In this document: in pieces, positions 5,021-25,630 of the stretch
Layout of the letters: each line of letters opens with the position of its first letter
How positions within the stretch are numbered: the first letter of the stretch is position 1
Source: a virus
Length of the DNA stretch: 25,630 nt
Direction: 5' to 3' (one strand)
IMG/VR virus record: IMGVR_UViG_3300025684_000723
Location: 1 to 25,630 of that record
Notes under the pieces: model-generated
Seen by the model: only the letters and a program-made list of their open reading frames with translations
Database searches by the model: none
Told to the model about the DNA's origin: nothing
Program-made: the position numbers and the translations under genes

Positions 5021-5545
5021 TTATTTGTGTCCTGTTAATTGTAGTGTATATCTTTTTTCAATACCAATATTCGCTGCCATATGCAAAGTGTTGCCGAGCC
5101 ACCAAAAATAATCCCCGGCTTGCCAACCTGTTTGAGGTTGGTTATTAATTTCAAAATAGTGTCCGCTTTTCCAGTCTTCCAGCATTACAATAACACGAAC
5201 AATGTCATTGAGCTTGCATCCAAACAGGTCTCTGTAACGTTTGTAAATGTCTCCATGTACTGGTAGTATTACCCCTGTGCCCATTTTATAATAGCTACTA
5301 CCTACATTGCTAACACCAAATTCGTCAGCAAACCAATCAATTAGTGTTGGGTTCCAACTTGGTTGTTTTTCTCTCATATCGCATAAAAACCCAGTGTAAT
5401 GACTGTCAGGGTGTACATACCCTTGTCTATGCCATTTTTCTAAATCTTTTGGATTGTTAAATGCTTCAAGACGGTAATTTAAATTTTTATATTCATTGTC
5501 CCAAAAAGGGTCAATGTGTCCTTTGCCCCACTCTTGTGTTTCCAT
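5021..5545 (-). CDS. 2-oxoglutarate/Fe(II)-dependent oxygenase-like protein
   Basis: A 174-aa double-stranded beta-helix protein resembling the aspartyl/prolyl hydroxylase type. The iron triad is visible as H97-x-D99 (PVHGD) and H155 (TLHMA). R165 in KRYTLQLTG is the expected 2-oxoglutarate ligand. Between them lie the typical MLEDWKSGHYFE and WQAGDYFWW strands. Such oxygenases are frequent in marine T4-like phages, with mostly unknown substrates. The ATG at 5545 follows AAGG by 9 nt and lies inside the end of the upstream sugar dehydrogenase gene (35-bp overlap). Confidence 0.82.
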   Translation of the reverse strand: METQEWGKGHIDPFWDNEYKNLNYRLEAFNNPKDLEKWHRQGYVHPDSHYTGFLCDMREKQPSWNPTLIDWFADEFGVSNVGSSYYKMGTGVILPVHGDIYKRYRDLFGCKLNDIVRVIVMLEDWKSGHYFEINNQPQTGWQAGDYFWWLGNTLHMAANIGIEKRYTLQLTGHK

Positions 5546-6752
5546 ATTGTATTACCTTAACTGTGTTATCTTTTGTTTTAAACTTTCTCCACGGATCAAC
5601 CACAATACTATTTTCTGGTATTTCACAGTAGAGTTCGTCTTGTGTGTCGGTACTGGCATAATTATAAGTTGTACTTGCGCTGTGTGCTAGTAAAAATACG
5701 CCAGACTCGGTTGGCTGAAAATTATCACTGGTGTTAGGATCAATGTATACTGGTACATGACCCATGTCATTGAGGTAGTGTCCAATTAATAAGCTGTAAC
5801 TTCCTTCTAAATACTCTACACCTGGCTTGTATGATTTTCCGTGTATGTATACTGGATAATTGTTTTCTGAGGCTAAGTTAGCTAATTTTGTTGCCATGTT
5901 TTTTGCTTGAATCTGCCTAGCATTCATTATAGCATCAAATAGATCATATCCTAAGTCAAGTTCCTGTGCCATGTAGCGCAGAGCTATATTATCACGTGGG
6001 TGACAGCCGCCTCCGTCGCCCATACCAGCAGTCATATATTGCGGACCCATAATACGCTTTGTGCTATATGCAAGTGCATTTGTTACTACATCTACATTGA
6101 TGTTACCCTGCTTTTCAGCAACGTCTTGTATCATATTAACAAGACCAATTTTAGTACTAATAAAGGTATTGTAAAAAACTTTAATAGCTTCGCATTCGTC
6201 CCATGTTCCGATTTCATATCTTGGATTGTTTTCCATAATGTTTTTATAGAAGTCTACTAGTTCTTTAGCATCGCCAGTTTCGCTACCGTCTTCAGTGCCG
6301 ATCATAACCATTTCTGGATTGACCATGTCCCATGCTACACTGCCCATTGCGATTAAATATGGATTGTATACAAATCTTGTATTAGGTACCAAATCAACAA
6401 ACTGTTTGCGTGTTGTGCCTGGCAATACTGTACTAACCAGCACCAATAACTGATCTTTGTTCATATACTGATTTGCTTCTGCTAGTACTTGTTTAACAAT
6501 ACTGTAGTCAAAGTCTTTAGGCTCTAGATGAGCAGTTGGATCTCTTCCGTCATAGTCCGGATCATGCGGTGTAGGCACAGCAACAAAAACAATATCTGCA
6601 TTTGCAACTGCACCTTTTATTGACGTAAACATTGTTACAAGTTGACTTTTCTTGTAGGTTGCATCATACCCAGAGACCGTGTGCCCTTTTGATGCGATTG
6701 CTTCTGCACATGGCATTCCTAATTTGCCAACGCCTAGCCAAGTAATTCTCAT
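5511..6752 (-). CDS. UDP-glucose/GDP-mannose-type 6-dehydrogenase, full length
   Basis: A 413-aa nucleotide-sugar dehydrogenase that would oxidise a sugar C6 alcohol to the uronic acid with 2 NAD+. The N-terminal Rossmann motif GVGKLGMP is at residues 7-14. VPTPHDP and VSTVLPGTT follow, then the central-helix residues K191 and N195 (KVFYNTF), and catalytic Cys250 in GDGGGCHPRD. The usual motif is GGxCLPKD, so Leu-Lys are replaced by His-Arg here. The C-terminal domain with YIHGKSYKPGVEYLEGS (usual GxxYKxxxxDxRxS) is present. Substrate may be UDP-Glc, GDP-Man or a HexNAc form. A perfect late box lies 29 bases upstream, and the leader has AAAGG. It overlaps the following oxygenase gene by 35 bp. 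Confidence 0.9.
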   Translation of the reverse strand: MRITWLGVGKLGMPCAEAIASKGHTVSGYDATYKKSQLVTMFTSIKGAVANADIVFVAVPTPHDPDYDGRDPTAHLEPKDFDYSIVKQVLAEANQYMNKDQLLVLVSTVLPGTTRKQFVDLVPNTRFVYNPYLIAMGSVAWDMVNPEMVMIGTEDGSETGDAKELVDFYKNIMENNPRYEIGTWDECEAIKVFYNTFISTKIGLVNMIQDVAEKQGNINVDVVTNALAYSTKRIMGPQYMTAGMGDGGGCHPRDNIALRYMAQELDLGYDLFDAIMNARQIQAKNMATKLANLASENNYPVYIHGKSYKPGVEYLEGSYSLLIGHYLNDMGHVPVYIDPNTSDNFQPTESGVFLLAHSASTTYNYASTDTQDELYCEIPENSIVVDPWRKFKTKDNTVKVIQYGNTRVGQRTH

Positions 6753-6780
6753 AATATGGGATAACCTTTTAATTATAAAA

Positions 6781-6788
6781 TATTTATA
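6781..6788 (-). promoter_or_regulatory. T4-type late promoter box TATAAATA upstream of the sugar dehydrogenase
   Basis: Minus-strand TATAAATA, overlapping the stop of the metallophosphoesterase gene. The predicted start of transcription is ~6775, giving a 23-nt leader with AAAGG before the ATG at 6752. Confidence 0.7.
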
Positions 6789-7332
6789 GTTTCAATTCAT
6801 CAATATTTACCGGAATGTAATTTGTCTGTTCGACACATACACATTTATATCTACCTTCGGGCGACTCTGCAGAATGTATGTGTCCGTGTACATTTAACAA
6901 CGGGGTTTTTTCATCAACTAGTACTTCGCCTGCTCTTTTATAAATCCAAGAAACATTTTCGTGCACTGGAGCATGTGTTAGCATTAATTTTCTATCGATG
7001 TCAATTTTCCAAAGGACAACTTCTTTAAACCACTTGTAGCTACAGATCATGTCAATTTTGTCATGATTGCCAACAACTAGATTTTTAGTCCCGTTTAAAC
7101 GAGGCCAATTTTTTTCCATCCAGGCAACTTTATTGTCTCCAAAAATAACATCGCCTAGATGCCATACAGTATCTTCAGGTTTAACTACACTGTTCCACGA
7201 TTCGATTATGTGTTCATTCATCTCAGAAATAGTGTTAAAGCCAGGACGAACAAGTGTGTTATCTTTTTCCTTGGCTCCAAATATCCATTGATCATTGAAG
7301 TGTGTGTCGCTAGTCAGCCATATGTTGCTCAT
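6784..7332 (-). CDS. calcineurin-like metallophosphoesterase
   Basis: A 182-aa phosphoesterase with the full metal-binding set: D9-x-H11 (SDTHF), G60-D61 (LGDV), G88-N-H-D91, H120 (THAP) and H149-G-H151-x-H153 (VHGHIH). This small form is common in phages and resembles the MJ0936/YfcE-type or phosphatase/RNA 2',3'-cyclic phosphodiesterase group. The substrate cannot be assigned. The ATG at 7332 lies 23 bp inside the upstream dehydrogenase gene, so translation is probably coupled. No leader-borne strong Shine-Dalgarno is visible. Confidence 0.88.
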   Translation of the reverse strand: MSNIWLTSDTHFNDQWIFGAKEKDNTLVRPGFNTISEMNEHIIESWNSVVKPEDTVWHLGDVIFGDNKVAWMEKNWPRLNGTKNLVVGNHDKIDMICSYKWFKEVVLWKIDIDRKLMLTHAPVHENVSWIYKRAGEVLVDEKTPLLNVHGHIHSAESPEGRYKCVCVEQTNYIPVNIDELKL

Positions 7333-8098
7333 TGTTTCTTACTCTTTTGTTGTATTTAACAACTCCTTCAAGAATATCAAATTGGTAACCAAGACGGCGT
7401 GCAGTGTGTAACATAGCACTAGTATCCTTAGGTAAACAATGTCCGCCCCAACCCAATTGATTGTCTGGTCCGGGAACATAACTATGGTCTGGCATAATGC
7501 GTTTATCTTGTGTTAAATGGTGCCTAACTGTTTCAAAATTAGCGCCAATTAGATCACTTAGTTCATACAAATGATTAAAGAATCCGACTTTCATTGCAAG
7601 AAAACTGTTTTCTGCATACTTGATTAATATTGCTTCTTCGTGCGAACATGTAAAGTGGTGTATAGAAGGGAAGCGATGCCTAAACACGTCTAACCAAAAA
7701 TCAACATTGCCGCCTCCAAGTATTACAAATTCCTGTGCTGCGAAATCGTCATTGGCACTTGCTGCTCGTAAAAACTCTGGGCTTAGTGTAATTCTGTGAG
7801 TAGGATACTTGGCACGTAACTCTTGGAAGTTTTCTAATGCTACTGTACTTTTAATTAGCACAGGTGTTGTTTCTGGGATATCAGCAAAGACTGCTTCAAT
7901 TGCTGTACTGTCGCAAGTACCGTCGCCGTTGTTGCTTTCTGGTGTACCTACACATACAATCACACCGTCTGCATATTGATCATATATACGATTTTTGTTG
8001 TATTGAGGATCTACTACATAGGTATTAAAGTAATCTTTAAGACTATTTTCTACAGCTTTGCCTACAAAACCATAACCAGCAATTGTTATTTTTTTCAT
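7310..8098 (-). CDS. short nucleotide-sugar dehydrogenase lacking the C-terminal domain
   Basis: A 262-aa member of the UDP-glucose dehydrogenase family. GYGFVG (residues 8-13), CVGTPE, IKSTV, SPEFLRAASA (106-115), K160/N164 (KYAENSFLAMK) and catalytic Cys221 in WGGHCLPKDTS are all present and intact. The protein stops ~25 residues after the central helix, so the third domain that normally completes the UDP-sugar site (~120-150 aa) is missing. The reading frame ends cleanly and overlaps the next gene, so this is a stable short form rather than an obvious frameshift. The full-length paralog at 5511-6752 might supply the missing domain in a mixed complex (speculative). The ATG at 8098 is one base after the upstream stop. 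Confidence 0.87.
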   Translation of the reverse strand: MKKITIAGYGFVGKAVENSLKDYFNTYVVDPQYNKNRIYDQYADGVIVCVGTPESNNGDGTCDSTAIEAVFADIPETTPVLIKSTVALENFQELRAKYPTHRITLSPEFLRAASANDDFAAQEFVILGGGNVDFWLDVFRHRFPSIHHFTCSHEEAILIKYAENSFLAMKVGFFNHLYELSDLIGANFETVRHHLTQDKRIMPDHSYVPGPDNQLGWGGHCLPKDTSAMLHTARRLGYQFDILEGVVKYNKRVRNNEQHMAD

Positions 8099-10577: not shown

Positions 10578-10602
10578 CTTTTATTAATTTTTAATTATAG
10601 AA

Positions 10603-11190
10603 TTACGAAAATGTTATTGTAATTGATTTTACACCGCCGACATAAGCAATTGATGGTGTATCAATATTTGAATGCTGGAAGAACGGGTTTGTACCTGGGT
10701 CTGATTCGTTCCAAACATATCCTGGAGTTCCGCCACTGCCTTCATCTCCGTTGTCAAAATCTTCTTCGTCGGTTTTTGGTTGATTTGGATCATAATCAGG
10801 GTTCATTAAGTATGCTGGGTTTACTGGGCATCTGTCAGATGAAGTTGGATCATAATCTGGATTAATAATTGCTCTCCAACCTACTTGTTGTTGCACATCA
10901 AAATTACTTGTATTGTCGTCGGCTAAGATTAAACGTTCGTATGTTGTGCCGTCGTTTGCAACATCAACACGCTTAATTTGTAAGTCTCTGCCCACATCGT
11001 CGTTTTTGAAATCTAAATTTAACGTATAACTACCTGCGTCAACATCAATTGTATACTCACGCACAACTTCAGTTGAGCCGATATCTAGATCTAGATCAAC
11101 GTTTATGCTGTTGAAATCAACATCAACTACTGGACCTATGCTATCTGCAAGTGTGCCTTCCATAGTTAATTTAATTTTTCTCGCTGCCAT
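10603..11190 (-). CDS. putative virion or adhesion protein with a CBM-like beta domain
   Basis: A 195-aa protein rich in Asp, Thr and beta-strand pattern, with no signal peptide. Residues ~43-77 (VREYTIDVDAGSYTLNLDF, then NDDVGRDLQIKRVDV) resemble Ca-dependent xylan-binding modules (CBM36/CBM60 style: 'aGtytl.v.FtND..g.DRnL.vd.v'). The middle carries two INPDYDP/MNPDYDP repeats and an acidic linker. The fold and the separate promoter/terminator pair suggest an abundant late protein, perhaps a capsid decoration or fibre-associated lectin (inference). The ATG at 11190 follows AAGGA. Confidence 0.65.
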   Translation of the reverse strand: MAARKIKLTMEGTLADSIGPVVDVDFNSINVDLDLDIGSTEVVREYTIDVDAGSYTLNLDFKNDDVGRDLQIKRVDVANDGTTYERLILADDNTSNFDVQQQVGWRAIINPDYDPTSSDRCPVNPAYLMNPDYDPNQPKTDEEDFDNGDEGSGGTPGYVWNESDPGTNPFFQHSNIDTPSIAYVGGVKSITITFS

Positions 11191-11229
11191 GGATTTTCCT
11201 TTTTATTATAAAATGCATTTTTATAACAT

Positions 11230-11237
11230 TATTTATC
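11230..11237 (-). promoter_or_regulatory. candidate late promoter box GATAAATA
   Basis: Minus-strand GATAAATA (6 of 8 match) lies 40 bases before the ATG at 11190. The leader holds AAGGA. It sits in the gap after the SGNH-like gene. A TATAAAAA-like run just downstream is an alternative. Confidence 0.45.
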
Positions 11238-11245
11238 AACTTTAC

Positions 11246-12079
11246 TCAATAAATTTGGTTAACTATTAGATCTGCACAATCTCTGTGTGCTAGTTCTAAC
11301 GGATGACTAGTAGCGTAACTATAGTTGTTTAATCTAGCCCAGTCGTCAAATCCAAACCCCGAGTAGTTAATATTTCCAGGAAATTCAAACCATTTCTCCC
11401 AATCAATTAGTGTTCTAATACTATTTAAATACTGGCTACCCGGATTGTTCACTGCTATTTTTTTTAATGAATCAGTTACATAATGATTTACATATGTAAA
11501 CATATAATCAATATTATGCAATTTTAAATAGTTTTGCAAAAGTAAAATATCTTTTATATTTATATAACTGTTGTTCAACGGATTCATGTGTACTACACGA
11601 TTATACTGTTTTGCAAAGTCAACTACACCTAGATTTAAACTTCGATTCCATTTTGTTAACAAGCTATCTCTAGTGAATTTCCAGTTCTCGGTTGATTTTG
11701 GAAGTGCACTAAACCAACTACTTTCAGCTTCGTTATCAGCACTATGGACACTAAACGGGTACCACGGGCTATCATATTCATTTGTAGGTTTATCTAATGC
11801 ATACTCGTAACGATCTGTAAATGTCCACATGACTTGAACAAATATATCTTGTGATTCTACATCTGTATTAACAAGAGTATCTAATATATGTCTAACAATG
11901 TAAGCATTGCTTCGACCGCTTCTTGCTAAATTTAAATGTTTCGTGCCAATTTTGCTAGCAACTACATTAGCCCAACTCGAATAATGAGGAATTTTAGGAT
12001 TTTCATTTTTGTTATGCAATTCAGCACCAAATGTAAAGCTGTCTCCGCCCGAAATAACTAGTTTGTATTTTTTAGACAT
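11246..12079 (-). CDS. SGNH/GDSL-like hydrolase (DUF6071-like)
   Basis: A 277-aa protein with SGNH block I GGDSFTFG (Ser14 as candidate nucleophile), block II/III-like NLARSGRSN (Gly55, Asn58) and a C-terminal SHPLELAH with His259. Family members are esterases, acyltransferases or deacetylases acting on glycans or lipids. The canonical Asp three residues before the His is not present (ATSH), so the charge relay may differ. Its place after the nucleotidyltransferase-cupin gene (1-bp TAATG overlap) suggests O-acyl editing of a glycan (inference). Confidence 0.72.
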   Translation of the reverse strand: MSKKYKLVISGGDSFTFGAELHNKNENPKIPHYSSWANVVASKIGTKHLNLARSGRSNAYIVRHILDTLVNTDVESQDIFVQVMWTFTDRYEYALDKPTNEYDSPWYPFSVHSADNEAESSWFSALPKSTENWKFTRDSLLTKWNRSLNLGVVDFAKQYNRVVHMNPLNNSYINIKDILLLQNYLKLHNIDYMFTYVNHYVTDSLKKIAVNNPGSQYLNSIRTLIDWEKWFEFPGNINYSGFGFDDWARLNNYSYATSHPLELAHRDCADLIVNQIY

Positions 12080-12837
12080 TAATCTCTTCTCTCAATATCT
12101 TTCTCAGTCAATTCTTTGCCCATCCACACTTCTATAACTTTAGCATTTTTATTGTCTATATTTATTGCTTTGTGCCAATACCCTACTGGTATATCAATAC
12201 TGTCGCCTGCTACTAACAAGTGTGATGTTTTATGACCGGACTTATCTTCTAAAAACATGTTTATAACACCATCAACAACATGCCAATGTTCGCTTCGTTT
12301 AAGATGGCGCTGATCGCTTAGTGCTTTGTCTTTAAGGAATGTGAGTTCTTTTACTTGCCAGTTGTTGTTACTGTCTAGTATTTTGTACTCGCCCCAGGCA
12401 CGTTTAGTAATAGGCTTATCCCAGTTTTTTAATATCCAACTGCTTGAATTCTTTTTATCTTCACCACCTACACCAAATACAAATTCTACATTAGTATATT
12501 GCATTTCGGGTATATTAGACTCTGTTCTATCTCCGCCATTAGCAAAGATAATTTTTGTACTTGACCCTGTTGTGCTTTGTAATTGAAAAATTGCATTACA
12601 TGCACTATTATCATCGTCGTTAAATCCAATAACTTTATCTACTACTTTGAGTTCTTTAATAATAGCACAACGTTCTTTAAAGGGCATAAAAGCTTTGCCC
12701 TTTTTGCGTGTTAGCCATTCATCACTATTTACACCAACTACCAGATCATCACCTAGCTCTTTTGCTGCGTTAAAATACGCAATATGTCCGCTATGCAACG
12801 GGTCAAATCCGCCGGTAACTAATACTACTTTTTTCAT
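12079..12837 (-). CDS. fusion of a cytidylyltransferase-like domain and a PMI-type cupin
   Basis: A 252-aa two-domain protein. Residues 1-~130 are a nucleotidyltransferase of the RfaE/TagD type: GGFDPLHSGHIAYFNAAK (HxGH at 15-18), VNSDEWLTRKKGKAFMPF and ANGGDR. Residues ~146-245 are a cupin like the C-terminus of type II mannose-6-P isomerase/GMP (ManC): AWGEYKIL, WQVKELTF, QRHLKRSEHWHVVDG (metal-ligand histidines H178, H184, H186) and IPVGYWHKAIN. The usual ManC pairs this cupin with a different (GT-A-like) pyrophosphorylase, so this pairing is unusual. Activation and isomerisation of a sugar phosphate is the likely role. The ATG at 12837 follows GGA. Confidence 0.82.
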   Translation of the reverse strand: MKKVVLVTGGFDPLHSGHIAYFNAAKELGDDLVVGVNSDEWLTRKKGKAFMPFKERCAIIKELKVVDKVIGFNDDDNSACNAIFQLQSTTGSSTKIIFANGGDRTESNIPEMQYTNVEFVFGVGGEDKKNSSSWILKNWDKPITKRAWGEYKILDSNNNWQVKELTFLKDKALSDQRHLKRSEHWHVVDGVINMFLEDKSGHKTSHLLVAGDSIDIPVGYWHKAINIDNKNAKVIEVWMGKELTEKDIERRD

Positions 12838-17346: not shown

Positions 17347-18369
17347 TCAGTCAGCGCCTTTACGCTGACGGATCATAGCAAGAATATCTGCTGTCTTTGT
17401 ATCTGCACTAGCTGCCGGAGCGTCTGAAGATGCTGCTGGCGCAGTACTTTGCTCGACTTCTTTCCATCCTGTATCAGTGACTGATTCAGTCACTGCCTCT
17501 GCTACTGGCGCAGGTGCAGGTGCAGGTGCTGCTGGAACAGGTGCGGGTGTAGGAACAGATGATGGTGTATTATATTGTAAACCTGCTGGCTTATAATACT
17601 GTGCAAATGCATCTGGGTCATACGGCTGGCCGTCTACACTTGCTTCGAACATTTCCTGCAATACTCGCATTTCTGTTTCGCTTGGTTTCTTTGGTAAGAA
17701 ATCGTCTAAATTAAACAAACCGTTTGATTCAATTGTATCCAACTCGGTGTTGTTTAGTGCTGTTTCCTTACGAGCCCACTTACTTGTACTATAATCAGCG
17801 TACTGACCTTTTGTAGTTTTAGTAACCCAAAAGTCTAGCCCACGTTCGTAGTCAGTTGGCAATTCTTCAATTTCAGTGTCAATGAGTGCACTTTTAATTA
17901 CATTGAAAATTTGTGGACTAATAATAAAGCGACGAATTAGGTTTTCTGGCTCTTGATCTTCTACCATTGGTGTTTCGCGGACAAATCCTTGGAACACATA
18001 TGAACGCTTTTTCCAATACTTACGACCCATATCCTCAAGACTTGGGTCTTTAAACCAACTACGTACTTCGCCCAAGATAGGACAAGATGTACCATCGTTG
18101 TACATTTCAACACACGGAACTTGTACCATTACTGGTTTACTGTCCATTTGTCCTTTAATGCCCTGGAAAGGCAAACGAATCATACTACGCTCGACCCAGA
18201 AAAAGTCATTCTTCGTATTGCCGTCTGGCAAGAAGCGTAGTTTTGCTGTTGTTCCTTCGGGGATGTTCCAGTGTGCGTATACTGCACGATCGCCGCCTTG
18301 GTTGCTTGAACCTGTACTGCGTGTTTCTTGTTGTTGTAGTTTAGCACGAATTTCTGCTAGTGTTGCCAT
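17347..18369 (-). CDS. 32: gp32-like single-stranded DNA-binding protein
   Basis: A 340-aa protein that coats single-stranded DNA in replication, recombination and repair. The call rests on the N-terminal LAST-like basic helix (MATLAEIRAKLQ) and the core with WVERSMIRLPFQG. The block FKDPSLEDMGRKYWKKRSYVFQGFV, characteristic of marine T4-like gp32, also supports it. The T4 zinc site (H-C-C-C) is incomplete: C86 and C96 remain, but the last Cys of CPxC is Leu99. A Pro/Ala-rich linker (PAPVPAAPAPAPAP) leads to a C-terminus that ends basic (IRQRKGAD), not acidic as in T4. The ATG at 18369 is chosen for AAGGA 9 nt upstream. In-frame ATG 18393 has no Shine-Dalgarno. Confidence 0.92.
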   Translation of the reverse strand: MATLAEIRAKLQQQETRSTGSSNQGGDRAVYAHWNIPEGTTAKLRFLPDGNTKNDFFWVERSMIRLPFQGIKGQMDSKPVMVQVPCVEMYNDGTSCPILGEVRSWFKDPSLEDMGRKYWKKRSYVFQGFVRETPMVEDQEPENLIRRFIISPQIFNVIKSALIDTEIEELPTDYERGLDFWVTKTTKGQYADYSTSKWARKETALNNTELDTIESNGLFNLDDFLPKKPSETEMRVLQEMFEASVDGQPYDPDAFAQYYKPAGLQYNTPSSVPTPAPVPAAPAPAPAPVAEAVTESVTDTGWKEVEQSTAPAASSDAPAASADTKTADILAMIRQRKGAD

Positions 18370-18526: not shown

Positions 18527-20950
18527 TTAGATACCTGCGTAGATTTTAATAAGGTTTAAACTTTCTTGGAATAGTGTATCATCTTCCGAGTCGTTTATTT
18601 CTTCTGCTGTAGATTTCTTTTTCGTTGCTTTTTTAATAGCTTTGTCTCTACTACCCATGTACTCATCACGTGGAGATTCAATTCTGCCATCTCCGTCGTA
18701 ATCTTGGTTAGCTTTTACTTTAAGTGTTTTTTCTAAGATAGCAACTTCGCCATCTTCTGTAGTGTTTGTTTCGCTATTAGCTAAGGCTTGAATTGCTGCC
18801 TGTGGCTTTTTGGTTGTTAATGCACGTTTAGCAATTTCACCAGCAACTGGTATTTCATTTGGAGCTAAACGCTGACCTTTAGTTAACTTGTCGCTAACTC
18901 TTTTCATGTCCTGTGCTGCTTTTGCATCGCCTCCGCTGAGTGCTTTTAATACTTGTGCGTTTGCTTTTTGTGTGCTTTGTGTTCCGATTGTACCTTGAGT
19001 TACTGCTTCTACCATTTCATTTGCCCAATTTTCAAATTCTTCATGATATCCACCAGAACGTTTCTTCTTTTTGCCGTACATTTCTGTTGGATCCACACGC
19101 ACTTGGGATTTATAGTCTTGATCAGTTGCCATCATTTTAAAATCATCTAGATATTTTTTAGCCAATAGCATTGCTAATTGCTTGTCGCCTTTATACTCTG
19201 GTGTCATTCTTGTACCAAACGTTTCGCCTTCTTCGCCAATGTTAATACTCATTTCGCTTGCAAAGTTTGCTAATGCATCTGCATTTGCGCCGATTGCTCT
19301 GCTTGCAATATCAGCCATGATAAACGCTAAAAGTCCTTGCGATTTAGTAAAGTTTGCATTTTTAAACATTGCATCTGCACTATCGTCTTTTTTCAATATC
19401 AATACAAAGTTTGGATCTTTGATTGTTTTTTCAACACTTGGGCTTGCTTCATATAGTCCATCAATGTCGCCCAAGTAGCCGTCACATGCATGGTCTTCAT
19501 CATTAGGGCAATCACCACCGCAATATTTGCATTTTTCTTCATTTTCTTCAGTAACTGACTCTTCCCAAGGTGCTTTCTTTAGAGATACCTTTTTACGATC
19601 TTCACCACGCTCTGGTTCATCCGCAGCATAACGTGCACGTTTTATTTCACGTTCTTTTTCTGCATCGGACTTTTTGTCTTCGTCGACACCACTGTCACGT
19701 CCAATACGCATTTCTAAGTCACGAGCTACTTGATCACGTACATCAGTGTCATCAGCTTCTTCAAATTTGCTTTCTGTGTCTGATAAGTTTGTTAATGCTT
19801 TCATTGCCGAGTCAATTGCTTCTTCAGGACTGCTGAATACGTTTGCTTTATATGCACGTTCAATGTCGTCGATTATTTCTGCAACTTCATTATTGCCTTC
19901 TTTGCTAAACATTCCGTACTCTCTGTTACTTGCATATTGACCAGCAGCTGGGTTGTAATCAGGCGCACCCATACTTGCTTCAACTTTGTTAGTCGTGCTT
20001 TCTAGTGCACGTTGCACACTTGGTAGTAAATTATCCATTTTTTCATTCCAAACTTTTACTGTAAATTTTTCTTGTAACTGTGACACATCGCCGGCTGCTG
20101 ACGATTCAACAGGTGAAAATGTTTCCACAAACTGTTTATAATTGTTTACATTTTGCATACGCATAATATCTTTTCTGATAGCCTGATACGAATCAACTAC
20201 ACGTGATCTTATACTATTTGCTTCTTCATCTTCCATTGCATGCCTACGAGTTATCCTGGCAAACTGAGACAAGTTGCGCATTTCTTCAACTGTGCTTATA
20301 ATGTGTTTGCCGATCTCGTCATAAGGCTTGCCGCCTTCGTTTACATGAACTGCCATTGCTCTGGCACCATTTAAATAATTAATCGGGAAACGAAATTTTT
20401 CACCGTCGGATTCAATAAAAATTTTATCTATGTGTCTACTACGTGATCCACGTACTTCTTCATCTACTGTCTTTTTATGATACACAACCAGTGTAGCATT
20501 TTCAAACTTTTGCATGCTCTTGCGCTTGCTACCGTACATCTTTGATTCTGTAATTTCCACTTCGTCTTCCTTATAAGCTCCATTGTTTTTACTTAAAACT
20601 TTATAATCTCTATCGTCGAGTTGGTTCTTTTCAATGTCGTGTGCATCGAACGTCATTAAATTTTGCTTTGCAAAATTTCTCATATCTTTAAGAAACCCGT
20701 ACCATTTAGCATCGTTTTTTGAATTTTGTACAATATTATCAGAATAAAAAACTTTAATCTGATCATTTCCTACAATACTAACACTCACAGGGCCTAGTGG
20801 CTTGTCATTTTCTGTATACACAAAACTAAAAAATCTTGCTTCTGCAGGATCAACAGTTGAATCGGCATTATCGTTGCCGATATTCAATGGAGAAAAACGT
20901 GTTCTCAGTAGATCAAAAAGGTCGGATGCGGTCTTGTTCATTGGTTTCAT
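18527..20950 (-). CDS. large hypothetical protein, probable virion component, 807 aa
   Basis: I do not recognise the family. The protein is hydrophilic, highly charged and mostly helical, with no membrane segments. Around residue ~475 is a Cys cluster CKYCGGDC...HACDG (C-x2-C-x3-C-x8-C), a possible zinc knuckle. Near the C-terminus (~750) is DYDGDGRIESPRDE, an EF-hand/dockerin-like DxDxDG calcium loop. The protein ends ESLNLIKIYAGI, a tail shared in form with two prohead-region proteins. Position beside terminase gp17 and its size suggest a structural or capsid-internal protein (inference). I prefer ATG 20950 (5 nt after TAAATA) over ATG 20965, which overlaps the terminase stop by one base. 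The spacing pattern at other genes favours the former. Confidence 0.8.
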   Translation of the reverse strand: MKPMNKTASDLFDLLRTRFSPLNIGNDNADSTVDPAEARFFSFVYTENDKPLGPVSVSIVGNDQIKVFYSDNIVQNSKNDAKWYGFLKDMRNFAKQNLMTFDAHDIEKNQLDDRDYKVLSKNNGAYKEDEVEITESKMYGSKRKSMQKFENATLVVYHKKTVDEEVRGSRSRHIDKIFIESDGEKFRFPINYLNGARAMAVHVNEGGKPYDEIGKHIISTVEEMRNLSQFARITRRHAMEDEEANSIRSRVVDSYQAIRKDIMRMQNVNNYKQFVETFSPVESSAAGDVSQLQEKFTVKVWNEKMDNLLPSVQRALESTTNKVEASMGAPDYNPAAGQYASNREYGMFSKEGNNEVAEIIDDIERAYKANVFSSPEEAIDSAMKALTNLSDTESKFEEADDTDVRDQVARDLEMRIGRDSGVDEDKKSDAEKEREIKRARYAADEPERGEDRKKVSLKKAPWEESVTEENEEKCKYCGGDCPNDEDHACDGYLGDIDGLYEASPSVEKTIKDPNFVLILKKDDSADAMFKNANFTKSQGLLAFIMADIASRAIGANADALANFASEMSINIGEEGETFGTRMTPEYKGDKQLAMLLAKKYLDDFKMMATDQDYKSQVRVDPTEMYGKKKKRSGGYHEEFENWANEMVEAVTQGTIGTQSTQKANAQVLKALSGGDAKAAQDMKRVSDKLTKGQRLAPNEIPVAGEIAKRALTTKKPQAAIQALANSETNTTEDGEVAILEKTLKVKANQDYDGDGRIESPRDEYMGSRDKAIKKATKKKSTAEEINDSEDDTLFQESLNLIKIYAGI

Positions 20951-20955
20951 AGTAC

Positions 20956-20963
20956 TATTTACC
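20956..20963 (-). promoter_or_regulatory. weak late-type box GGTAAATA before the 807-aa gene
   Basis: Minus-strand GGTAAATA (6 of 8 match), followed by 5 nt and then the ATG at 20950, the same geometry as the terminase start (TAAATAGTAATATG versus TAAATAGTACTATG). Confidence 0.4.
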
Positions 20964-20964
20964 A

Positions 20965-22530
20965 TTAAAGTATAATAAATGGCATTGGTTCGACTATGTC
21001 ATCTAAACTGTCTTGTAATTGTTTTTGTATTTCTGGGTCATAGTTTTGCAACACCATACTCATGCGAATAGCTAGCACTGTACTCATTACTAGATCATCT
21101 TTTTCTCCTGGTTTAGCTGCATAACTACTACCACTTGCAACAAAATGTTTTAGCTCGCTTAAAAGTGCTTTACTATGCAATTTTAATTTGTCGCTTTCGA
21201 CTAAATTTTTTAGTTTAGAACATACAGTAATTTTACTTTTATTTGTAGTATTAAAACCTTTTCTAAACTGTCTAACATTGCCGGCTCGTTTTGGTTCACT
21301 TAAAAATATACCAGCAATATTTTCTTCGCCGGTTTCGCTAATGCTCACTAGTGCTGCTTCTCCTAGTGTATTGTTTTCAACACTATAGTATACACTATAC
21401 ATATCATTGATTTCGTCAGTGATGTATTTGGTTATTTCGCTTAGTATACGAACTTGTTTCTGTATTGGAGTTTTATTGTGCATCCACTCTGCTACTTGTT
21501 CCATGCTAGGCAATTCATATACTTGGAGAGCTGCATTATCACCTCCGGTCCCAAGACTTGGGTCTAATGCTACAACATATGTGTGTCCACGAGTAGGTTT
21601 CTTAAACCATCGTACTTGTCCTTGTTTGATAATAGGATCACTACTTTCAAGTTGCATAAGTTTTAAACTATCAATTAGTGTTTCATCATATATAATAGGT
21701 TCACACAAGTGCTCACGCTTGAATCTTTCTTCTCCTACACGACTCATTTCTTCATGTGCCCAAGTATCGTCTCTATCAGGATGTCTTTCCCAAGTAGCAA
21801 TATACCCAGCAAAGCCATTGACGCCAAGTTTGGTTTCGTTTCCAAATTCGTCAACACGTTTATTAGCACCAGACCACAGAAACCAAAACTGGTCTTCGTC
21901 GCTGTTTGGTGTGCTGGTAATAATTGCTTTACCACCTGTTGCTAGTGTCGGAGAAATACTAGTCCAAAACTCTCGAGCAATAGTAGGTCTAACAAATGCA
22001 AATTCGTCGCAGTATAGTAGTGTAATACTCATACCACGTCCGGTAGTTTCGGTGGTAGTTTGACTAACAATGCGTGACCCATTGTCAAATTCTATGCTGC
22101 CTTTGTTATAACTAGTAACACCAGCACGAATGTGATCAGGACATAATTCATACGCATAACGTATACGCTGCATAATTTCTTGTGCACCACTGTACTTGTG
22201 TGCAGCAATCAAGATAGTACTATCAGGCACAAACATGCTATACCATAACAAGTAACCTGCTGCGGTTGTAGTTTTGCCCATTTGTCGTCCTAGTAAATTA
22301 ATACTAAAACGGTTTTCATGATAGCATTGGATCAACTCTTCTTGATATTCAAATGCCTTATATAACATTCTGCCCTTAGTAGGATGCTGAATGCTAAAAT
22401 AATTTTCAGTGAAAAAATAAGGTCCGGTTTCTGGATCAGCACAACGTGCAAAGTTAACCAATTGCTCGTTACTCATTTTTTCTCTGGCATATGCTTTTTT
22501 TACTAATACGCCTTCTAAACTTTTGCTCAT
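20965..22530 (-). CDS. 17: terminase large subunit gp17
   Basis: A 521-aa DNA-packaging motor: N-terminal ATPase plus C-terminal RNase H-like nuclease. Walker A LGRQMGKTT is at ~80-88 and Walker B LLYCDEF at 171-177. ITSTPNS is motif III. Nuclease residues are D323 (VALDPSLGTGGDN), E385 (SVENNTLG) and D478/D479 (EKDDLVMS). The length is shorter than T4 gp17 (610 aa), as usual for marine relatives. It packages concatemeric DNA into the prohead through the portal. No Shine-Dalgarno is present, and ATG 22530 lies 5 nt after TAAATA. The stop overlaps an upstream ATG of the next gene by one base. Confidence 0.96.
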   Translation of the reverse strand: MSKSLEGVLVKKAYAREKMSNEQLVNFARCADPETGPYFFTENYFSIQHPTKGRMLYKAFEYQEELIQCYHENRFSINLLGRQMGKTTTAAGYLLWYSMFVPDSTILIAAHKYSGAQEIMQRIRYAYELCPDHIRAGVTSYNKGSIEFDNGSRIVSQTTTETTGRGMSITLLYCDEFAFVRPTIAREFWTSISPTLATGGKAIITSTPNSDEDQFWFLWSGANKRVDEFGNETKLGVNGFAGYIATWERHPDRDDTWAHEEMSRVGEERFKREHLCEPIIYDETLIDSLKLMQLESSDPIIKQGQVRWFKKPTRGHTYVVALDPSLGTGGDNAALQVYELPSMEQVAEWMHNKTPIQKQVRILSEITKYITDEINDMYSVYYSVENNTLGEAALVSISETGEENIAGIFLSEPKRAGNVRQFRKGFNTTNKSKITVCSKLKNLVESDKLKLHSKALLSELKHFVASGSSYAAKPGEKDDLVMSTVLAIRMSMVLQNYDPEIQKQLQDSLDDIVEPMPFIIL

Positions 22531-22535
22531 ATTAC

Positions 22536-22543
22536 TATTTAAC
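22536..22543 (-). promoter_or_regulatory. weak late-type box GTTAAATA before terminase
   Basis: Minus-strand GTTAAATA (6 of 8 match). Predicted +1 is exactly the ATG at 22530. Confidence 0.4.
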
Positions 22544-22550
22544 CAATTTA

Positions 22551-22811
22551 TTAATTGATATATTTACTGTCTTCTGTTATACTCTTAAAGTAGTTTGGTC
22601 CGTAATACGGATCATTATAGACTAAATTGATTGTATTGATTTTTGCTTCGATATGTTCATGCCAATGGTCCAGGAATTTTTTCATTCGAGGAAAGTTAGG
22701 ATAAAGATCAATTGTTTGCCAATTGAATTCGTTCAATACTCTGGGGTAATCAGGCATGTGATAGTAAATCTGAATTAAAGTTAACTGTTCAATTATTAGT
22801 TCTTTCTTCAT
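22551..22811 (-). CDS. Usg-like small protein, 86 aa
   Basis: An 86-aa soluble protein whose body matches the Usg family of alphaproteobacteria: LTLIQIYYHMPDYPRVLNEF, then WQTIDLYPNFPRMKKFLDHW and HIEAKINTINLVYN. The hallmarks are the YHMPD-P-L--F-WQ--D--P-FP---FL-FW run. Usg was named for a gene upstream of trpF in Caulobacter, and its molecular role is not established. Presence in a phage suggests capture from an alphaproteobacterial host. I chose the ATG at 22811 because a longer reading (to 22880) runs back over the divergent gene. The predicted +1 of an AATAAATA box falls on this ATG. Confidence 0.78.
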   Translation of the reverse strand: MKKELIIEQLTLIQIYYHMPDYPRVLNEFNWQTIDLYPNFPRMKKFLDHWHEHIEAKINTINLVYNDPYYGPNYFKSITEDSKYIN

Positions 22812-22818
22812 ATAAATA
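22811..22818 (+). promoter_or_regulatory. T4-type late promoter box TATAAATA for the radical SAM/HNH unit
   Basis: Perfect plus-strand TATAAATA. Predicted +1 is 22824, leaving a 17-nt leader to the ATG at 22841 without a clear Shine-Dalgarno. It overlaps the minus-strand box at 22817-22824. Confidence 0.65.
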
Positions 22819-22824
22819 TTTATT
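22817..22824 (-). promoter_or_regulatory. late promoter box AATAAATA for the Usg-like gene, leaderless geometry
   Basis: Minus-strand AATAAATA (7 of 8). Predicted +1 is 22811, the A of the Usg-like ATG. It shares two bases with the divergent plus-strand box. Confidence 0.6.
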
Positions 22825-22840
22825 ATTATTCGAGCAACAA

Positions 22841-24064
22841 ATGTCAAAACAACCGCCAAAAAACTTCTGTATATCTCCATTTATTAGTACTAGGCAAGGA
22901 CCTTCTCAAAAAGTGTCGCCTTGTGCATTTGGTGCCGGGGAATGGTATCAGCCCGATCTAAACAGTAAAGAACGTTGGAACAGCAACGAACTTGAAAGCC
23001 TTAGACAGAAATTTTTAAACAACGAACAACCAGATGAATGTAAAAGATGCTGGAACGAAGAAACAGCTGGAGCACAAAGTCTTCGGTTGCGACAGTATGA
23101 ATATTTTCCAAATGCATACGAAGAATATATTTTATCTGAAAAATATAAAACAGGTCCCATTACTGCGGTAATTAAAACTAGTAATATTTGTAACCTAGCA
23201 TGCAGAAGTTGTGCTGGATGGGATAGTAGCCTTTACACCAAAGAAGGTGAGCATTATGCTGAAAAGTATAACACACGGGACGAAGACGAACCTAACCGAG
23301 CAGTACACAATAGATTTATTCCATTGCTAGGACAACAAGAGTTTGATTTTAATGACTTTATTAGTGTAAGTGACAATTTAGAAAAAGTAGATTTTTTTGG
23401 CGGTGAGCCGTTGTTAAATGAATCACATGTTAAACTATTAGAACATCTGGTTAATACAGGACAGAGCAAAAATGTTACATTGTTTTATAGTACAAATACT
23501 GTGCAGTTTCCAAAGAAAAAACTATTAAATATTTGGGACAAATTTAAAGCAATTGAATTAAGTTTAAGTATCGACGGTGTCGGTGCTGCTTTTGAATACA
23601 CTAGGTGGCCGGGGAAATGGAACAAGTGCGAACGTAATATTAATCGGTTTATTGATTTTAAAAATAATAGCAATAGCGATGTTAGTGTTAGAAGTGCTAC
23701 GTGTTTCAGTATACTATCATTGTTTAACTTTAAAGAAACATACGAATATTTAGATAATGTCACTGACAGTGTATACGTTAATATTGTACAAAATCCAGCA
23801 TATTTAAACCCGGTAAATATTCCAGAAGAGATAAAACCAAAAGTAAATGATTTTTATAATGGCTTATATGCTGAAACTGTTAATTTTGTTAACATAGAAC
23901 AATCAGACCTTAGGCGCTTTAAACAATTTTGTATATGGATGGCTAGACAAGATATGTACAGAAAACAAACATTAAAACATAGTTTACCTATGTTGTATGA
24001 AGTTATAGAACCGTATTGGAAAAAATACACCAAAGATTTAAGCGATAATTATTTTCATCAATGA
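22841..24064 (+). CDS. radical SAM protein (twitch/SPASM-like layout)
   Basis: A 407-aa enzyme. The radical SAM cluster motif is CNLACRSC (C117, C121, C124). FFGGEPLL (GGEP 187-190) binds SAM, and LSLSIDG is the following strand. An unusual Cys-bearing N-terminal segment precedes it: C10 in FCISPF, C28 in SPCAF and C67-x2-C70 in ECKRCW. This segment could hold an auxiliary cluster. Such 'twitch-domain' radical SAM proteins are known from marine phages, but the substrate is unknown. Peptide or sugar modification are both possible. It is the first gene of a plus-strand pair inserted between terminase/Usg and the prohead-type genes. Confidence 0.88.
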   Translation: MSKQPPKNFCISPFISTRQGPSQKVSPCAFGAGEWYQPDLNSKERWNSNELESLRQKFLNNEQPDECKRCWNEETAGAQSLRLRQYEYFPNAYEEYILSEKYKTGPITAVIKTSNICNLACRSCAGWDSSLYTKEGEHYAEKYNTRDEDEPNRAVHNRFIPLLGQQEFDFNDFISVSDNLEKVDFFGGEPLLNESHVKLLEHLVNTGQSKNVTLFYSTNTVQFPKKKLLNIWDKFKAIELSLSIDGVGAAFEYTRWPGKWNKCERNINRFIDFKNNSNSDVSVRSATCFSILSLFNFKETYEYLDNVTDSVYVNIVQNPAYLNPVNIPEEIKPKVNDFYNGLYAETVNFVNIEQSDLRRFKQFCIWMARQDMYRKQTLKHSLPMLYEVIEPYWKKYTKDLSDNYFHQ

Positions 24065-24083
24065 AACAAAAAATGAGAAAAAT

Positions 24084-24599
24084 ATGTCAGATGTATTAGT
24101 TTTAAATGCCGATTATCGACCTTTAAACTTTTTGCCACTTAGTACTATTTCATGGCAACATGCAATGAAATTAGATATGCTAGAGAGAATTAAACCTATA
24201 GAATGGTATGACGAGTGGCAGGTTCGCAGTGCACACGATTCGTGGGCAGTGCCTGCTATTGTGGTTACTAAAGAATTTCAAAAATACAAAAAAAGTGTGA
24301 GGTTTAGCCGGCGTGCTGTATATCTCAGAGACTTATATACTTGTCAATATTGTAGCGAACCTTTTGCTCAAAAAGATTTAACATTAGATCATGTATTACC
24401 AGTGTGCAAAGGCGGAAAAACTGAGTGGACTAACATTGTTACTGCATGCAAAAAATGCAATCACAGCAAGAGTGATAAGATTATAAGTCCTATTAGATTA
24501 CCATGGAAACCCGAATACTGGCAAATTGTTGCTCATATCAAAGATAACCACGGATTTACATTTAAGCACCCGAGCTGGGAAAGATATTTAAATTCATGA
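24084..24599 (+). CDS. HNH endonuclease
   Basis: A 171-aa HNH nuclease. The N-terminus VLVLNADYRPLNFLPLSTISW is typical of the phage/bacterial HNH subgroup. The zinc ribbon is C87-x2-C90 (CQYC) and C122-x2-C125 (CKKC). The catalytic core is LDHVLPVCKGG (D102-H103), N117 and N126-H127. It could be a free-standing homing endonuclease or a packaging-associated nuclease near terminase. It follows the radical SAM gene by 19 bp with GAG upstream of the ATG, and its end overlaps the convergent 71-aa gene by 6 bp. Confidence 0.92.
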   Translation: MSDVLVLNADYRPLNFLPLSTISWQHAMKLDMLERIKPIEWYDEWQVRSAHDSWAVPAIVVTKEFQKYKKSVRFSRRAVYLRDLYTCQYCSEPFAQKDLTLDHVLPVCKGGKTEWTNIVTACKKCNHSKSDKIISPIRLPWKPEYWQIVAHIKDNHGFTFKHPSWERYLNS

Positions 24600-24809
24600 A
24601 AGTGGATTTTCGCCAGTTAAATAAGGTTTAGCAAACCAAAGTTTAAACCATTCAGGATCGCCTGGTTTTATATTATTAGCTTTTTGATGGTCTGATTTTT
24701 CTTGTGCAGTAACCGTAACATTGCCATTATCAACATTATAGGGTGTCATTCCAGAAAAACTGGCAGGTACGATACCCGCCAGTGTTTTTAATCTATTTAG
24801 ATCATCCAT
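24594..24809 (-). CDS. small prohead-region protein, 71 aa, with N-terminal AGI motif
   Basis: It begins MDDLNRLKTLAGI, then VPASFSG, and ends with PGDPEWFKLWFAKPYLTGENP. I do not recognise a characterised family. The N-terminal DLNRLKTLAGI has the same form as the C-terminal tails of the acidic protein upstream and of the 807-aa protein. The start at 24809 is chosen because it overlaps the stop of the 54-aa gene by 8 bp (ATGGATGA), which fits coupled translation. Longer readings run through that gene. Position after the acidic protein suggests a prohead core or internal protein (inference). Confidence 0.68.
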   Translation of the reverse strand: MDDLNRLKTLAGIVPASFSGMTPYNVDNGNVTVTAQEKSDHQKANNIKPGDPEWFKLWFAKPYLTGENPLS

Positions 24810-24966
24810 TTCTATATATTGTATACGCACCATATGCAATTGCGCCATACGCAATTAAGTTAGCAAGTGGCGAAAACACAATAATTGCTGCACCTGCCGC
24901 TACCATTAGCACGCCATCTATACTACTACGCTCTGCTAGTTTTGCTTTTATACGATCAACAATCAT
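24802..24966 (-). CDS. small membrane protein, 54 aa
   Basis: A complete ORF with ATG at 24966 one base after the preceding stop, an AGG upstream and a stop at 24804-24802. It begins with a basic/charged head (MIVDRIKAKLAERSS), then a hydrophobic stretch VLMVAAGAAIIVF and a second LANLIAYGAIAYGAYTI. It therefore likely spans the membrane once or twice. The tight packing between two prohead-type genes supports it being real. A membrane-anchored prohead initiator or a holin-like protein are both possible. I cannot decide between them. Confidence 0.68.
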   Translation of the reverse strand: MIVDRIKAKLAERSSIDGVLMVAAGAAIIVFSPLANLIAYGAIAYGAYTIYRNG

Positions 24967-24967
24967 A

Positions 24968-25630
24968 TTAGATGCCTGCCATTTTTAAGAATCTGCTTAA
25001 ACCTTGGTCATCTGCTTCCACAACTTCGTCAGTTGCTTCTTCTAGTTCTTCTTCAGCAACAACTTCTTCAGTTTCTTCAGCAACAACTTCTTCAGTAGAT
25101 TCTTCATCTTCTGCAAGCATTTCGTCTAGCATTGCTTTGAATTTACCTTCAAATGTTTCCATTGGATTATCGCCGCCGTCAACATCAGCATATGCTTCTT
25201 TGCTTTTGTTTAAATCATCGCCACTAGCAATTACTGCGTCCATGCCAAAAGTTTCTTCATCTGGAGAATTTGCATACTCAGTGTCTTCCATTTCTGGTTC
25301 TGGCATTGCTGGCATTGCTGGTTCTGGCATACCTGCATTTTTAAGAATTGCTAGTAGTTCTGCTGCTTCGGCGCCTTCAGCACTTACCATGATTGCTTCT
25401 TCTAGTTCTTCTTCGGCTACAGCTTCTTCTGACTCGTCGACTTCGTCTTTGTCGTCGTCTTTGTTACCTTTTTTAGCAGCAAGCATTTTTTCAAAAGCGG
25501 CTTTTTGTGCTGGACTTTGTGCTTCTTCTAGTTCTTCTTCACCAATTTTTGGAAGATGATCGTAATCACTGTCATCGCTGCCATCGATCATATCCATGGC
25601 ATCTTGTGCTACCATAGAAGCACGGTTTGG
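24968..25630 (-). CDS. long acidic protein, prohead/scaffold-like, 5' end outside the window
   Basis: The frame stays open to the right edge, so the true start may lie beyond 25630. ATG 25615 is only one candidate (219 or more residues visible in all). The protein is extremely rich in Glu, Asp and Ala, with three EEELEEA units (starting KIGEEELEEAQSP, then AVAEEELEEA, then VVAEEELEEA) and a Met-Pro-rich MPEPAMPAMPEPEM stretch. It ends DDQGLSRFLKMAGI. High acidity, low complexity and location suggest a prohead core/scaffold protein (gp67/gp22-like position in T4 order), without sequence proof. No catalytic motif is seen. Confidence 0.62.
   Translation of the reverse strand, partial: PNRASMVAQDAMDMIDGSDDSDYDHLPKIGEEELEEAQSPAQKAAFEKMLAAKKGNKDDDKDEVDESEEAVAEEELEEAIMVSAEGAEAAELLAILKNAGMPEPAMPAMPEPEMEDTEYANSPDEETFGMDAVIASGDDLNKSKEAYADVDGGDNPMETFEGKFKAMLDEMLAEDEESTEEVVAEETEEVVAEEELEEATDEVVEADDQGLSRFLKMAGI

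Follow-up and report, generated by a model that had tools for sequence, protein, structure and literature searches.

The AGI peptide in a jumbo phage fragment

We analysed a viral DNA fragment of 25,630 bases, IMG/VR virus record IMGVR_UViG_3300025684_000723 (hereafter the window), in which three proteins encoded near the gene for the terminase large subunit, TerL, share a short peptide that ends in AGI (the AGI tag; Table 1). Based on the matches of TerL and of the 812-aa protein encoded downstream of it, the window is a piece of a T4-superfamily jumbo phage genome, and TerL also served to retrieve the relatives examined below. The open reading frame (ORF) of the TerL-downstream protein has 812 codons, or 807 if counted from the second methionine, and its product, distantly matched by proteins of PA5oct, 121Q and other jumbo phages of this kind, ends in ESLNLIKIYAGI. 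The second carrier, a 71-aa protein, begins with MDDLNRLKTLAGI, and the third is an acidic protein tagged at its C-terminus. A sequence-only reading of the window had pointed out these peptides, and all three are present as it described; the acidic protein holds a further, internal copy, AAELLAILKNAGM, that it had not reported. Family look-ups gave no trustworthy match for the 71-aa protein and nothing useful for the acidic protein, which also lacked a sequence match in the phage collection. Assignment of the 71-aa protein to PAGK was rejected, as the match was below the Pfam cut-off and lies outside the tag.

Table 1. Positions in the window of the tagged proteins, their tags and neighbouring genes
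Feature	Position	Strand	Remarks
812/807-aa protein, downstream of TerL	18527..20965	-	phrog_13484 (virion structural protein) matched over the N-terminal part
C-terminal tag SLNLIKIYAGI of 812/807-aa protein	18530..18562	-	Same end tagged in orthologs
Terminase large subunit TerL	20965..22530	-	phrog_36964, E 2.8e-117
Radical-SAM-like ORF and HNH endonuclease	22841-24064 and 24084-24599	+	Radical-SAM match below Pfam cut-off
71-aa protein	24594..24809	-	Internal ATG start within an 86-aa ORF
N-terminal tag DLNRLKTLAGI of 71-aa protein	24771..24803	-	Family of 20 N-tagged members; top score in the window
Acidic protein	24968..25615	-	ORF may extend past the window edge
C-terminal tag GLSRFLKMAGI of acidic protein	24971..25003	-	Tag also in related loci L002 and L005
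Internal copy LLAILKNAGM in acidic protein	25328..25357	-	May belong to a small domain

The scaffold of related phages ends in the same peptide

When nine large related contigs were read for carriers of the motif, a protein of 366-369 aa was also found to have it at the C-terminus. The gene for this protein lies between those for a Peptidase_S77 (gp21-type) prohead protease and the Gp23 major capsid protein, with the portal gene upstream, and thus occupies the place of gp22 in the T4 gene order 20-67-68-21-22-23. The family, phrog_10922, is labelled 'unknown function', and its homologs in 121Q and MIJ3 are annotated as scaffolding proteins. Using a scan for the capsid protein, we obtained 80 loci, of which 79 had a readable ORF directly upstream; in 78 of the 79 this ORF ended in the motif, typically as NVIDIKRLAGL. 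Six cultured phages carry the motif at the scaffold C-terminus, which reads VDELRRLAGIK in MIJ3, INDLKRLAGIKK in Atu_ph07 and LDRLTKIAGIRK in Vibrio phage 2.275.O, takes the LSGI/LSGM variants in 121Q (LKELDVLSGINKK) and GAP32 (LDEIAKLSGMDKKR), and likewise closes the PA5oct scaffold. Many scaffold tails continue past the motif with K, KK, N or KTN.

An AlphaFold2 model of the scaffold, built from 25 sequences, featured long helices up to residue 318 in a rod-like coiled-coil architecture, disorder from 321 to 358 and a short C-terminal helix of low confidence at 359-366. The predicted layout is a long helical rod, a disordered tether and a short end helix. Approximately 32 residues before the scaffold end, an LxE[SGA] site is found in 68 of 78 tails, where about 6 would be expected. 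Proteases of the gp21 type prefer sites of this kind, and the conservation of the site suggests removal of the scaffold tail by the prohead protease. Near the tags of other proteins the site is inconsistent and present in some orthologs only, and a general cleavage site beside the tag was rejected for them.

The motif is enriched at protein termini

The consensus is roughly [LIV]xx[LIM][KR]xLAG[ILM], which corresponds to a shared xLxxLKxLAGI peptide. In 90 related loci, C-terminal matches to a loose regular expression numbered 43, compared with 4.3 expected by position, and those to a stricter expression 31, compared with 1.7; both counts include homologous copies. We also trained a matrix of 10 positions on scaffold tails only, using 39 distinct, weighted 10-mers; it replaced a first matrix of 53 near-identical tails with heavy weights, which was too narrow. 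In the nine large contigs, with scaffolds excluded, a score threshold of >=14 and expectations taken from shuffled proteins, the matrix gave 5 matches at C-termini versus 0.03 expected, 5 at N-termini versus 0.04 and 10 at internal positions versus 1.6. Within the window, LNRLKTLAGI of the 71-aa protein ranks first of 8060 10-mers (per-position p 1.1e-6) and LSRFLKMAGI of the acidic protein second (p 7.5e-5). LNLIKIYAGI of the 812-aa protein is only ninth, with a score of 7.6, and non-significant by itself; its status as a tag is supported by orthologs tagged at the same end. In the cultured phages Atu_ph07 and Vibrio 2.275.O, the matrix also detected terminal copies in proteins other than the scaffold. 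No terminal match was found in T4 or in cyanophage P-HM2. The counts are consistent with a motif that is commoner at termini than inside proteins, and the strictly terminal placement implied by the sequence-only reading gives way to a strong terminal excess with some internal copies. That short hydrophobic helices resemble one another by chance, as the ninth rank of the 812-aa tail taken alone might suggest, is very improbable in view of the roughly 100-fold terminal excess under an independently trained matrix, the conservation across lineages and the T4 and P-HM2 controls.

Unrelated proteins carry the tag at different positions

Across all proteins fetched, the carriers other than the scaffold form several unrelated families. 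Many TerL-downstream orthologs, of 449 to 1018 aa, are tagged at the C-terminus, with tails such as SLKLLKMFAGI, SLALLKKYAGI, SIALLKKLSGL, FSAIKRLAGI, VDNLKKLAGI and LDDMKKLAGL; in more distant relatives the tag is lost or changed (e.g., ends DEWADGITQGY or LARIKSLALLK). Among orthologs of the 812-aa protein, the last 11 columns of the alignment show 71% mean identity and no gaps, compared with 48% identity and 16% gaps in the preceding 100 columns. The family of the 71-aa protein consists mostly of proteins of 65-71 aa. The acidic proteins of the TerL region have the tag at the C-terminus, at the N-terminus or internally, depending on the phage, and because its position varies in this way, a portable peptide appears to fit better than inheritance of a domain, although internal copies in these proteins could belong to a small domain.

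Two further carriers have family matches. A 280-aa protein with a sigma-70 region-4 match (Pfam 2.8e-17), encoded at 10595-11437 of related locus L042 after the TerL-downstream gene, bears the N-terminal tag MDINELKKLSGI, and we predict that it is a packaged transcription factor. In the cultured phage Atu_ph07, a Nudix hydrolase begins with the tag MNIDKLKKLAGIK, and its Nudix family match starts directly after, at residue 14. Additional carriers are a 104-aa protein and a 111-aa protein of Vibrio phage 2.275.O. Most tagged genes other than that of the scaffold flank the TerL gene, in the head and packaging region; those for the Atu_ph07 Nudix hydrolase and the Vibrio 111-aa protein do not adjoin it.

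Other short modules were seen in the same proteins. The acidic proteins of the window and of loci L031, L048, L058 and L072 share the segment DDL[HN]K.K..Y..V.GGDNPM. Residues 755-776 of the 812-aa protein (window 18638-18703, minus strand) form an EF-hand/dockerin-like loop, DYDGDGRIESPRDEYMGSRDKA, and the L003 ortholog, acidic proteins of L031, L033 and L045 and small proteins of L019, L035 and L040 have similar DxDxDG...DK[AE] loops; this loop is a second short module common to otherwise different head-region proteins.

Two tagged proteins are components of PA5oct virions

The database record of the cultured phage PA5oct marks proteins that others detected by electrospray ionization tandem mass spectrometry (ESI-MS/MS), which amount to approximately one quarter of its proteins. 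PA5oct has two clearly tagged proteins besides the scaffold, and both are marked. EST35_0203, an acidic protein encoded upstream of TerL, starts with MFNINDILRLAGV and contains an internal LDEISKLAGI; by position and composition, the acidic protein of the window is its counterpart. EST35_0235 contains an internal IDRIKKLAGI. The scaffold, EST35_0153, has no mark, though adjoining head genes are marked. In phAPEC6 virions, the scaffold was detected by two peptides, and a 48.5-kDa protein encoded next to the single-stranded DNA-binding protein (SSB) was detected as well (PMC7247149). By position and size, the 48.5-kDa protein matches gp5 of 121Q. The presence of tagged proteins in virions was looked at through PA5oct and phAPEC6 homologs, and the mass spectrometry places the two PA5oct proteins there.

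A candidate docking peptide for the prohead core

The sequence-only reading had proposed that the peptide might serve for sorting or scaffold docking and do so at either terminus. This proposal gains strong circumstantial support because the scaffold of this phage group itself ends in the same peptide, because most other carriers are encoded in the head and packaging region and because the two clearly tagged PA5oct proteins other than the scaffold are virion components. On balance, we consider it probable that the AGI tag works as a docking peptide of the scaffold type and recruits proteins to the prohead core. The peptide would be the docking tail of the core scaffold, of which several head-region proteins carry a copy, at either terminus or in a linker. 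In the prohead under assembly, the tail of the scaffold probably attaches to a site that occurs repeatedly, on the inside of the Gp23 shell or on a further component of the core; tagged proteins would bind like sites and be built into the prohead alongside the scaffold, whose tail the prohead protease would detach at maturation. A broader version of this idea, which we put forward tentatively, is a portable head 'zip code' in which the docking tail, copied to either end of unrelated proteins such as an enzyme or a sigma-like factor, loads them into the prohead and perhaps delivers them to the host.

Several observations weigh against a docking role. The sequence-only reading described the peptides as fitting short amphipathic helices, and this is unsupported, as the Eisenberg hydrophobic moment of the tag 11-mers does not exceed that of their own shuffles. 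An AlphaFold2 model of the scaffold tail and capsid protein as a read-through chain was useless (mean pLDDT, the predicted local distance difference test, 37). The scaffold gene of the window lies outside the fragment, and its tail is inferred from relatives whose TerL is approximately 71% identical. In 121Q, of which approximately 150 kb were read, and in GAP32, no convincing carrier besides the scaffold was found. The mass spectrometry covers just two tagged proteins other than the scaffold, in a phage with about a quarter of its proteins marked, which is weak alone, and presence in the virion is no proof that the tag brought them there. Furthermore, EST35_0206, the untagged PA5oct homolog of the 812-aa protein, is marked by ESI-MS/MS, and an untagged homolog is probably present in phAPEC6 virions as well, which indicates that the tag is not always needed for virion entry.

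Among other explanations, self-association is the closest: scaffold tails would bind each other or a segment of the scaffold, and the other tagged proteins would bind the scaffold rather than the shell. The same sequence evidence speaks for it, as does the disordered tether that parts the short predicted end helix from the rod; it differs from docking inside the prohead in the partner only, no direct evidence tells the two apart, and we regard it as unlikely. Slightly less likely still is that the tag docks on the packaging machinery at the terminase or portal and so joins packaging factors to the scaffolded prohead. The location of most carrier genes beside TerL would agree with this, but the most constant carrier is the scaffold, a many-copy interior protein, the Nudix and Vibrio 111-aa carriers are encoded away from TerL, and the tagged PA5oct proteins remain in the mature virion whereas the terminase, EST35_0204, has no mark. 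Small hydrophobic C-termini can also act as degrons, and PA5oct encodes ClpX, ClpA, ClpP and ClpS; a terminal degradation signal that clears the scaffold and accessory proteins after use is nevertheless improbable, as a ClpX/ClpA degron requires the very C-terminus, whereas the motif is also N-terminal and internal, many scaffold tails extend beyond it and tagged proteins are present in virions.

Other features of the window

The SSB of the window (C-terminus at 17347-17400, minus strand) ends in TADILAMIRQRKGAD, relatives end in [AE]DILAMIR[SAN]RQK and PA5oct in AQDIIALIRARQNSGN; this terminal peptide is also conserved and does not resemble the AGI tag. Between the genes for TerL and the 71-aa protein, the opposite strand carries the radical-SAM-like ORF and the HNH endonuclease gene. 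Sugar-metabolism-like genes are found on the minus strand at 5511-8098 and 12079-12837 and comprise two ORFs of the UDP-glucose/GDP-mannose dehydrogenase family and a fusion of the cytidylyltransferase/mannose-6-phosphate isomerase type.

Comparison with known systems

In T4, the internal proteins IPII and IPIII carry an N-terminal capsid targeting sequence (CTS) of approximately 10 residues that sorts them into the prohead core; the remaining core proteins do not share the CTS, and how sorting works has been called mysterious (PMC9958956). The AGI tag is alike in that about ten terminal residues are common to putatively internal proteins of a T4-superfamily phage, and it shows one feature of prohead targeting, namely a short terminal peptide on several unrelated proteins of one phage. 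It differs in that the CTS is N-terminal only and reads MKTYQEFIAEA, whereas the AGI tag stands at either end, has another motif and is the scaffold's own tail; on reading the T4 termini, we rejected membership in the CTS sequence family. For DarB of phage P1, the first 30 residues are enough for a reporter to be packaged, and the Dar proteins have no consensus (PMC9024508). This signal is also terminal, but it is N-terminal only, and no scaffold link is described for it in PMC9024508.

The phrog_10922 scaffold resembles T4 gp22 in the position of its gene between the protease and capsid genes, in its coiled-coil rod and in its C-terminal tail after a disordered stretch. In sequence, no significant similarity to gp22 was found (hhalign probability <1%, E 0.13, short stretch only). 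The gp22 tail, IVSVYAKVASRF, recurs in no other T4 protein, and the scaffold tail of P-HM2, which differs from the motif, has no copies elsewhere in the P-HM2 genome; the idea that T4-type scaffolds all have tails in common with their cargo was therefore dropped.

The AGI tag would act like the T4 and P1 targeting signals and differs from them in its sequence, its placement at either end and, most of all, its identity with the scaffold's own tail. Because the working would be similar and the sequence, placement and scaffold origin are different, we view it as a variation on known targeting signals, and we found no earlier report of the motif in open-licence literature. A peptide common to a scaffold and unrelated proteins offers a concrete and testable suggestion as to the binding partner of the address, would allow packaged proteins of jumbo phages to be predicted from sequence alone (e.g., the Atu_ph07 Nudix hydrolase, gp257, and the sigma-70 region-4 protein) and might itself serve as a tag with which large phage heads could be loaded with cargo.

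The cargo-loading peptides of encapsulins and the scaffold tails of herpesviruses and P22 are short terminal peptides on flexible linkers that dock inside a shell, and they are common to unrelated cargo or to scaffold and protease. The likeness of the AGI tag to these peptides is an analogy in which docking to the shell is proposed. If it holds, the zip code would load proteins into phage heads much as cargo peptides load encapsulins.

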